Source: Lewinella sp. LCG006
GTDB lineage: Bacteria; Bacteroidota; Bacteroidia; Chitinophagales; Saprospiraceae
Reading direction: 5' to 3'
DNA length: 64,000 nucleotides
Assembly: GCF_040784935.1 (NCBI RefSeq)
Contig: NZ_CP160680.1
Span: forward strand, 1,603,501-1,667,500
A program made the position numbers and the translations under genes. This document shows positions 1,671 through 37,567 of the stretch, in pieces. Positions within the stretch are counted from its first letter, which is position 1. Each line of letters starts with the position of its first letter. The notes under the pieces were generated by a model. That model had not been told where the DNA came from. It saw nothing but the letters and a program-made list of their open reading frames with translations, and ran no database searches.

Positions 1671-1866
1671 TATACCCGTTACTAAGTGGTCTGGGACATT
1701 CTCACTTGTCCTTTTTTGCTCTGACTGCGTTAAAAAGCCTCGCCGAAGCTTAGGCTTCGCCTACGTTTTTCGCCTTGGCAGAGCAAAAAATGACGTTGCG
1801 ATAATATTCCCAACTCAGAGGAGCTTGCGACGATCAGCGTAGCTAAACCACTTAGTGCCGGGTATA
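1671..1866. repeat. MITE-like element, copy 1 (TA-flanked, 196 bp)
   Basis: The ends are TATACCCGTTACTAAGTGGT and, inverted, TATACCCGGCACTAAGTGGT, which match at 18 of 20 bases. The interior contains nested palindromes around TTTTGCTCTG/CAGAGCAAAA and CGAAGCTTAGGCTTCG. A near-identical 163-bp copy sits at 36968-37130. This copy carries about 33 extra bases near its right end (1811-1847). No protein of its own is encoded. It fills much of the 1565-2010 gap, in which I see no gene. Confidence 0.85.
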
Positions 1867-35829: not shown

Positions 35830-36867
35830 TCAATAGATTCTCTTGTTATTCCATATTTTCTTAACCCCGTCAGCTGTCATTTTTACTTGTTTGATGGTAC
35901 CATCTTGATTAAATTCCATTTTGTCGATACAAGTTACCCGATGATCACGCCCTTCATTTGGAATAGGTCGTCTGTGATAAATAATATACCAATTATCCGT
36001 ATTTGGGGTATTAATTACGGAATGATGTCCCGCTCCTGTAGCAATATTTTCATCCGATTGTAGAATTGTTCCAATTCTTTTAAAAGGGCCTGTCACTTCT
36101 TCAGCCATTGCGTAAGCCACTTTATAGGTGTCATTCCCCCAATCACCCTCAGACCACATAAAATAGTAGGTATCTTTTCTACGAAACATAAAGGAACCTT
36201 CTACATACCCTTCAGGGGTAATTTCTTTAAATAATCCACCGTCATCCCAAGGGATAAACCCTGTAAAATCATCGTTAAGAATGGTGATATTGCAATGCCC
36301 CCAGCCTCCATAGAACATATAATATTTGTTATCAATGTCTTTAAATACAAACTGATCAATGGGTTGTGCACCATTATGAAACTCCCCTATCAGTGGTTTT
36401 CCAAGATAGTCTTTGAATGTTCCCGAAGGAGCATCTGCCACAGCTATTCCAATACCTCCATGATGATTAATTGTATTGTTTTCATTCCAGTAGGGGCCTC
36501 CTGATTTTTGAACATCATTTGCTGAAAAGAACAAATAATATTTATCATCTTTTTCTATAATGGATGGTGCCCAAAGCGCTTGTTTTGCCCATTTAATTAT
36601 AGAGGTGTCCAAAATATGAGCATGTTTTTTCCAAGAAATCAAATCTTTTGAAGAGAATGCATCGAAAAATACCTGGTTTTCATATTTAGCTGAATAGGTA
36701 GGAAACACCCAATACTCATCCTTAAAAACAACGCCCTCTGGATCGGCATACCAACCAGAAAATATCGGATTCCCAGAATATGCTAAATTTTTATCTTGTA
36801 GCTTTTTAGGCAGACAAGAGGAAACGATAATGACTATAGTTATAAGTGTTAATGACTGTATTTTCAT
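35830..36867 (-). CDS. Glycoside hydrolase family 43-like lipoprotein
   Basis: The protein is 345 aa with a lipobox (VIIVSSC, Cys about 18). The five-bladed-propeller GH43 pattern is clear: the catalytic-base Asp in WYADPEGVVFKDEYW, the transition-state Asp region in GAQPIDQFVFKD, the general-acid Glu in GYVEGSFMFRR and GAGHHSVINTP late. It is predicted to cleave arabinose- or xylose-containing glycans at the cell surface. No other polysaccharide-utilisation gene (SusC/SusD) is nearby. The base composition looks more AT-rich than its neighbours, which suggests transfer. Confidence 0.9.
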   Translation of the reverse strand: MKIQSLTLITIVIIVSSCLPKKLQDKNLAYSGNPIFSGWYADPEGVVFKDEYWVFPTYSAKYENQVFFDAFSSKDLISWKKHAHILDTSIIKWAKQALWAPSIIEKDDKYYLFFSANDVQKSGGPYWNENNTINHHGGIGIAVADAPSGTFKDYLGKPLIGEFHNGAQPIDQFVFKDIDNKYYMFYGGWGHCNITILNDDFTGFIPWDDGGLFKEITPEGYVEGSFMFRRKDTYYFMWSEGDWGNDTYKVAYAMAEEVTGPFKRIGTILQSDENIATGAGHHSVINTPNTDNWYIIYHRRPIPNEGRDHRVTCIDKMEFNQDGTIKQVKMTADGVKKIWNNKRIY

Positions 36868-36877
36868 ATAATCTGTT

Positions 36878-37362
36878 TTATGTTGATTGAATCACCTCCT
36901 TTGCCAACAATGGCTCCTGCAGGTGAAAAGGACCGCTTTTTATCTTATGCAAGGCCTCGTCAATATCTATACCCGTTACTAAGTGGTCTGGGACATTCTC
37001 ACTTGTCCTTTTTTGCTCTGACTGCGTTAAAAAGCCTCGCCGAAGCTTAGGCTTCGCCTACGTTTTTCGCCTTGGCAGAGCAAAAAATGACGTTGCGATA
37101 ATATTCCCAAACCACTTAGTGCCGGGTATAGTTCAAAGCGGGCATCTATCACAAAAGCTTCGTGGGCGTAAAGGCCCGACCGGAGTAGTTCAGGATTGGC
37201 CTTAAACTTTACCTCCATTTGCCTTTTCCTTTCCTCGTATTTCAAACGGATGTCTTCCAACACGCGCACGGGCAAACTACCAAACAGGCGGTAGGTCAGA
37301 TGTACCGGGCGGTAGCCCAGGTTTTGGTGAGGGATCTTGGCATTTGGTTTTTGCATTATCAT
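36878..37362 (-). pseudogene. REP-associated tyrosine transposase (RAYT) remnant, interrupted and truncated
   Basis: The N-terminal part (from the ATG at 37362) reads PVHLTYRLFGSLPVRVLEDI and later AHEAFVIDARFE, the opening of the RAYT/IS200-like family. It then runs into the MITE at 36968-37130. Beyond the MITE the sequence resumes with DIDEALHKIKSGPFHLQEPL, as expected for the next part of the family, and stops after VIQST. Removing the MITE and leaving one TA joins the parts in frame (ARFE-L-DIDEA). The HUH catalytic motif and the rest of the gene are missing, so it is inactive. The flanking palindrome at 37379 could be its REP. Confidence 0.7.
36968..37130. repeat. MITE-like element, copy 2 (TA-flanked, 163 bp), inserted in the RAYT remnant
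   Basis: The ends TATACCCGTTACTAAGTGGT (left) and TATACCCGGCACTAAGTGGT (right, inverted) match copy 1 at 1671-1866, as does the interior. The copy lacks the 33-bp insertion of copy 1. The in-frame join after removal with one TA left supports a TA target duplication. Confidence 0.88.
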
Positions 37363-37378
37363 TAAATTAGCAATGGTC

Positions 37379-37447
37379 GAGTCGCTGTGCGGCGAATTCG
37401 GTACGGCTATGCGGCGAATCCCGTCATAATTCGCCGCACAGCGACTC
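37379..37447. repeat. REP-like palindrome upstream of the RAYT remnant
   Basis: GAGTCGCTGTGCGGCGAATT (37379-37398) is the exact reverse complement of 37428-37447, with a 29-nt loop that holds a further GCGGCGAAT. It begins 16 bp before the remnant's start. RAYT genes are typically flanked by the REP palindromes they recognise. Confidence 0.65.
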
Positions 37448-37567
37448 AACCGAATATCTGATTATTGTAGTATTCGAAGACGAATACCAGGCAGATTTTT
37501 TTTGTTAATTTCAATCCAATGAAGCACGAAGAAGAAATATAAACAGCCTACTCCAACCCCGCAACTC

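Follow-up and report, generated by a model that had tools for sequence, protein, structure and literature searches.

A miniature inverted-repeat transposable element (MITE) of 163 bp interrupts the remnant of a REP-associated tyrosine transposase (RAYT) gene in the 64,000-nucleotide stretch of Lewinella sp. LCG006 analysed here (the window; contig NZ_CP160680.1, positions 1,603,501 to 1,667,500). We consider it probable that this element is mobilised by IS630 and belongs to a wide class of palindromic MITEs of approximately 160 bp that are defined by their central hairpin and not by their ends. The original prediction for this locus, which concerned the insertion and its TA target duplication, was correct; by itself, it describes an ordinary IS630 MITE insertion with unusually clean proof. 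The more interesting feature, which was missed there, is the interior core that is common to unrelated MITEs. The parts of the element are listed below, where R1 is a covariance model of the core and A1 is an alignment of 22 cores with differing ends from about a dozen genomes.

36968..37130, plus strand: MITE of 163 bp, a length that counts the two copies of the TA duplication (36968-36969 and 37129-37130)
36970..36993, plus strand: left terminal inverted repeat, TACCCGTTACTAAGTGGTCTGGGA, which matches the ends of a 1108-bp IS630 element
37105..37128, minus strand: right terminal inverted repeat, read on the minus strand as TACCCGGCACTAAGTGGTTTGGGA, from the pairing of the arms and the IS630 ends
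36999..37094, plus strand: hairpin of the conserved core, which scores 99 bits to R1 (96 positions) and shows covariation in A1
37022..37039, plus strand: loop motif copy 1, CTGCGTT-AAAAA-GCCTCG, from A1
37058..37074, plus strand: loop motif copy 2 in the same orientation, CTACGTT-TTTC-GCCTTG, from A1

A conserved core between differing ends

Read directly, the element extends from TATACCCG at 36968 to CGGGTATA at 37130. It is a short non-coding element, with no gene and with terminal inverted repeats (TIRs) of 24 bp. Its arms (36967-36993 and 37105-37131, 27 nt each) are 89% complementary, and it folds nearly end to end, with an energy of -49.4 kcal/mol as DNA (z -10.7 relative to shuffled sequences) and -73.4 as RNA (z -9.7). 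The weaker matches to this MITE, in its own and in other genomes, spanned the centre only; they proved to belong to further MITE-like elements, which have the same centre but ends of a quite different kind.

In A1, the core forms a hairpin of 28 pairs, 19 of which have changed on both sides, and 91.6% of the cells are paired. This level was reached by none of 500 shuffles, which ignore the relatedness of the cores, and slid controls, which retain that relatedness, were paired at 39-52%. Stems that lack sequence conservation remain paired, and the conserved residues are those of the internal loops, TKCGTT / GCCTYG and CCTCGCC / GCCTACG. On average, the two copies of the loop motif match each other at 10.5 of 13 positions, compared with at most 5.7 at other offsets. 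They occur as direct copies in every A1 core, and in the hairpin they become the same internal loop flanking an A/T helix with opposite polarity. In Rfam 15, the window stretch had only matches far below the gathering scores, and the sole match for 13 core loci was a tRNA outside the element. Several MITE copies in Membranihabitans marinus (L315, L322, L323 and L326) have another sequence inserted in the core, in each case at approximately one position that directly follows the tip hairpin.

The ends behave differently. Conservative single-linkage clustering separated 16 TIR groups, between which the median identity is 0.79 for the cores and 0.44, the level of shuffled ends, for the TIRs. Across families, the layout is the same and the element length is near-constant (mostly 159-165 bp). 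The ends associated with a TA duplication, which is of the IS630/Tc1-like kind, include TATACCCG, TATAGTCC, TATTGCTCC, CTAGTGTCC and others. A second class, whose ends include for example GGAATG, GTAATTC, GTAAC and TACCAA, is associated with a 3-bp duplication: TNA stands on both sides of 36 of 41 elements and the triplets are identical in 31 of the 41; all seven delimited copies of Membranihabitans agree with this class (TAA or TTA). By its duplication, the TNA class may be linked to enzymes of the IS5/PIF-Harbinger type. The two classes occur together in the isolate Phaeodactylibacter xiamenensis. The clearest pair was found in one Clostridiales metagenome-assembled genome (MAG), where a TA element (L356) and a TNA element (L333) have one mismatch over approximately 84 central bp and are unrelated in both outer arms. 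A near-identical centre between unrelated arms indicates that both ends were exchanged around one core. As read from these sequences, the pattern suggests that the core itself matters to the elements and that the ends are exchangeable.

The core is also widely distributed. R1 identifies 41 places in the genome of Lewinella sp. LCG006 (E up to 0.01). Of 297 genomes chosen from across the phylum, with other classes included, 11 contain a match. A contig scan with an exact pattern recovered at least 120 stretches, mostly from Saprospirales and other Bacteroidota, and the matches listed also include Clostridiales, two Rhizobium isolates, a gammaproteobacterial MAG and a cyanobacterial MAG. The numbers of core copies per host are 20 in R. 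oryzicola, 11 in R. lemnae, 74 and 19 in Clostridiales MAGs and 139 in the gammaproteobacterial MAG; the cyanobacterial MAG has a single core, which may be contamination. A search of viral contigs for the exact core produced no match.

The insertion in the RAYT gene and its probable IS630 partner

The interrupted gene and a second copy of the element in the window are as follows.

37131..37362, minus strand: RAYT remnant, 5' part up to ARFE; the joined remnant has 90% amino acid identity to an intact RAYT of the congener genome G002
36878..36967, minus strand: RAYT remnant, part past the MITE (DIDEA... to the stop); homology ends near 36885 and the catalytic half is absent
1671..1866, plus strand: second MITE copy of 196 bp, with TA on both sides and 33 bp of extra sequence close to the right end; its empty site is in L103

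On the minus strand, the sequence reads GCC CGC TTT GAA C(TA)-MITE-(TA) GAT ATT GAC, with CTAG as the insertion target. If one TA is kept, the two parts join in frame as ARFE-L-DIDEA, and if TATA or nothing is kept, the frame is shifted. The prediction that a 163-bp MITE splits the gene in this manner is confirmed by the sequence and by an uninterrupted, syntenic orthologue in G002 (L054/L091). The latter is free of the MITE, has 222 amino acids with an NHVHAIV motif, and shares with the window its neighbours on the 5' side, namely a kptA homologue followed by a gene for a 152-amino-acid lipoprotein. It contains a Y1_Tnp domain with the HUH motif (E 3.6e-10) and scores 61.4 bits to NF047646, which is under the cut-off of 80. 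The window remnant has lost its 3' part: homology to the RAYT extends to approximately 36885, which is short of the HUH motif and directly before the gene at 35830-36867.

At the site of insertion, G002 reads GCT AGA TTT GAG CTG GAT ATC GAC, and the window reads C-TA-insert-TA-G. The empty site is thus exactly one codon, and the insertion added 161 bp. The predicted TA duplication agrees with this length, and a single TA is present at the empty sites that G002 holds for two other copies, L001 (AAT-TA-TTCTC in L094) and L015 (CGC-TA-GTGG in L103). However, the codon of G002 at the RAYT site is CTG, with the dinucleotide TG, and not the CTA implied by the window; both codons are synonymous for Leu. 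Because of this CTG, we infer the TA at this particular site from the window and the two other empty sites. At the places that correspond to copies L016 and L011, G002 carries other sequence.

The genome of Lewinella sp. LCG006 contains 17 full copies of the MITE, six of which are identical. TA stands outside both ends in 16 of the 17, and the base preceding TA is mostly a pyrimidine. The 33-bp extra stretch of the second window copy, AACTCAGAGGAGCTTGCGACGATCAGCGTAGCT, is common to that copy and to L017. In L016 (G000:C1:4075903-4076074), the ends are TAAACCC...GGGTTTA, such that both terminal repeats are altered at the same matching position, as would be expected if one arm had been copied from the other. 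Solo terminal repeats of approximately 29 bp occur at L128, L129 and L130 (G000:C1:4958449, 366589 and 4649636) and are possibly internal deletions of the element.

A donor of the IS630 type with the same terminal repeats had also been foreseen, and a search with the MITE ends located one in the same genome. Seven intact copies of this 1108-bp element are present, of which four are identical, one has a single difference and two have nine. The element is flanked by TA and has ends that are near-identical to those of the MITE over 23-24 bp, with two mismatches to the right MITE end. Its transposase frame of up to 361 amino acids matches the NCBIfam IS630 family transposase model NF033545 (E 2.4e-57) and DDE_3 (E 8e-30). 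Because both the ends and the TA duplication match, we infer that the MITE is mobilised in trans, and the 1108-bp element is a credible donor of the transposase. G002 holds the same IS630 element, with 96-97% identity in most fragments, as well as its own MITE copies at approximately 90% identity. An eighth IS630 copy (L131, G000:C1:7128410-7132085) is interrupted by approximately 2.5 kb of other sequence. A second DDE_3 transposase family with different ends has four copies in the genome (L029-L032), and its frame is split in two.

A palindrome resembling the repetitive extragenic palindromic (REP) sequences lies directly upstream of the RAYT start (37375-37451, with 24-nt arms that are 96% complementary), and a similar sequence is found beside the intact RAYT of G002.

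Possible explanations for a core kept between differing ends

According to the usual view, MITEs are decayed copies of a single insertion sequence, and their interior is meaningless. If a structured interior stays conserved and the ends change to suit different transposases, then the interior represents the lineage and the ends represent the vehicle, and such a conserved core with exchangeable ends should surprise specialists. Under the explanation we favour, a non-autonomous MITE moved by IS630 would have entered the CTAG target in the RAYT gene and duplicated TA, with the transposase presumably supplied by the resident 1108-bp element. Elements of this class would persist through the exchange of both ends around the core, which would render them movable by whichever transposase is present, and arm-to-arm copying while the palindrome replicates would keep the two ends matched.

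Our proposal for the core itself is more tentative. Because the stems are held by pairing and the loops by sequence, the core may be kept through recognition of a folded single strand, either RNA or extruded DNA, although we hold this with low confidence. The opposite polarity of the loops, the covarying stems and a shift of approximately 5 bp in the spacing of the related blocks in the Correia elements of Neisseria would be better explained by a dimer that acts on the hairpin, such as RNase III, than by a protein that binds a particular duplex sequence. That the two-fold symmetric double loop suits a dimeric RNase III-like factor is a guess that we regard as doubtful.

Several points weigh against this account. 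A transposase for the TNA class was sought and not found; two weak PF01609 matches in Membranihabitans lack MITE ends. The gammaproteobacterial copies and the clearest pair with swapped ends come from MAGs, and for the elements of Rhizobium it was not possible to delimit the ends. The pattern used for the contig scan fixes some of the loop bases, which inflates conservation in that part of the sample; in the last GCCTYG block, which the pattern left free, GCCT is still 94-99% conserved. Transposition is deduced from sequence comparison, and no transposition was observed. Furthermore, GU and AC departures from pairing are about equally common, and the orientation of genes shows no consistent bias, since an 11:1 excess of one co-directional arrangement in the own genome becomes 18:18 elsewhere. 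A strand-specific RNA was rejected on these two grounds, and for the same reasons neither RNA nor DNA is favoured as the recognised form.

The alternative that survives best, although we still rate it as rather unlikely, is that the core is a site in duplex DNA, composed of two direct copies of CTNCGTT-N5-GCCTYG, to which a nucleoid protein of the host or a factor that assists transposition would bind. Two direct copies are indeed found in every A1 core. However, the half-motifs of the Correia copy are approximately 5 bp closer, which is half a helical turn, and a duplex site does not account for stems that are kept paired without conservation of their sequence.

Somewhat less likely is plain inheritance, in which an ordinary IS630 MITE would have received its interior from one old lineage with drifted ends, with neither a function of the core nor any exchange of the ends. 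All families have one layout and a constant length (159-165 bp), which agrees with such descent, and the correction of a palindrome by template switching could mimic covariation. The same correction should erase the unpaired loops, yet no other part of the core is as conserved. Moreover, drift from a single lineage is difficult to reconcile with two different target duplications and with the near-identical cores of L356 and L333, whose ends are unrelated on both sides.

We give slightly less credence again to a bidirectional intrinsic terminator, comprising an A-tract, a GC hairpin and a T-tract, that would make intergenic insertions tolerable. Read in either direction, a GC-rich hairpin does lie between AAAAA and TTTTT, but the stem contains conserved mismatches that weaken it directly ahead of the T-tract, and the surrounding gene pairs (13 convergent vs. 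19 divergent) show no enrichment at gene ends.

That a Y1/RAYT transposase site resembling a REP was captured inside MITEs appears very improbable. On the minus strand, CGTAGGC precedes a hairpin, which we take to resemble the GTAG-tagged REPs, and the window copy lies inside a RAYT gene, but the A of GTAG is variable (GCAG in many cores), the palindrome beside the window RAYT is unrelated to the core, and nearly all cores with recognisable ends are central in a MITE.

Relation to known elements

The pairing of this MITE with IS630 follows the ordinary pattern of RUP and IS630-Spn1 in Streptococcus pneumoniae. RUP, a 107-bp element of one species, is likewise a small palindromic repeat with ends similar to those of a resident IS630, a TA duplication and insertions into other mobile elements (PMC2229807). 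Unlike the window MITE, RUP was not reported to have a core in common with differently ended MITEs (PMC2229807). We found no description of such a core in the open-access literature, which is not proof of novelty, and the available portions of the papers on the MITEs of Cardinium (IS982) and Coxiella (QMITE) describe no core common across MITE families.

The MITEs of eukaryotes offer a parallel. Stowaway and Tourist elements have TA and TWA duplications and are linked to Tc1/mariner and PIF/Harbinger transposases, which are relatives of IS630 and IS5. These are the same two classes of target duplication as those of the core-bearing MITEs. Here, one core serves both classes, whereas we know of no core common to both classes of eukaryotic MITEs.

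REP/RAYT systems also have a hairpin with a GTAG-like foot (PMC2817692, PMC3733652), and the RAYT gene that harbours the window MITE is accompanied by a palindrome of its own. The core of the window type differs in that DDE-type MITEs enclose it and its tag varies. The ERIC/IRU elements of enterobacteria are likewise palindromic repeats (127 bp) with a TA duplication (PMC2229807). The comparison of their core blocks gave a score of 16.9 (p 0.01-0.03), which does not support common blocks, and R1 had no match.

The Correia element (NEMIS/CREE) of Neisseria also has TA termini, is palindromic, and carries a directional core (PMC2649163, PMC2229807), in which the four conserved blocks stand in the same order. 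Compared with one Neisseria Correia copy, the four core blocks scored 37.7, a value reached by none of 5000 shuffles (mean 2.9, maximum 30.1), and R1 as a whole gave 14.8 bits only. The Correia element differs in its terminal repeats, lacks the A/T helix between the loops, and has longer forms with an IHF site. The window element was not accepted as a Correia element, because the Correia repeat TATAGTGGATTAA... and the window ends TATACCCG... are unrelated and only the core blocks are in common. Correia transcripts are substrates of RNase III, and the mechanism of Correia mobilisation was still undetermined in the same work (PMC2649163).

We consider the evidence evenly balanced for a broader proposal, in which one core hairpin would define a trans-phylum MITE superfamily that includes Correia, with the ends as exchangeable cassettes for at least two transposition systems (TA and TNA) and a function of the core selected across phyla. 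Replacement of the ends around a conserved interior would link the Correia element to a broad class with a nameable IS630 donor. The old question of why some bacterial MITEs retain a folded, conserved centre could then be tested by means of a single core and two different pairs of ends.

Phage records contained no Correia ends. Among the Neisseria records, NZ_CP119140.1 and NZ_CP119142.1, which are filed as plasmids at approximately 2.17 Mb, look like chromosomes.
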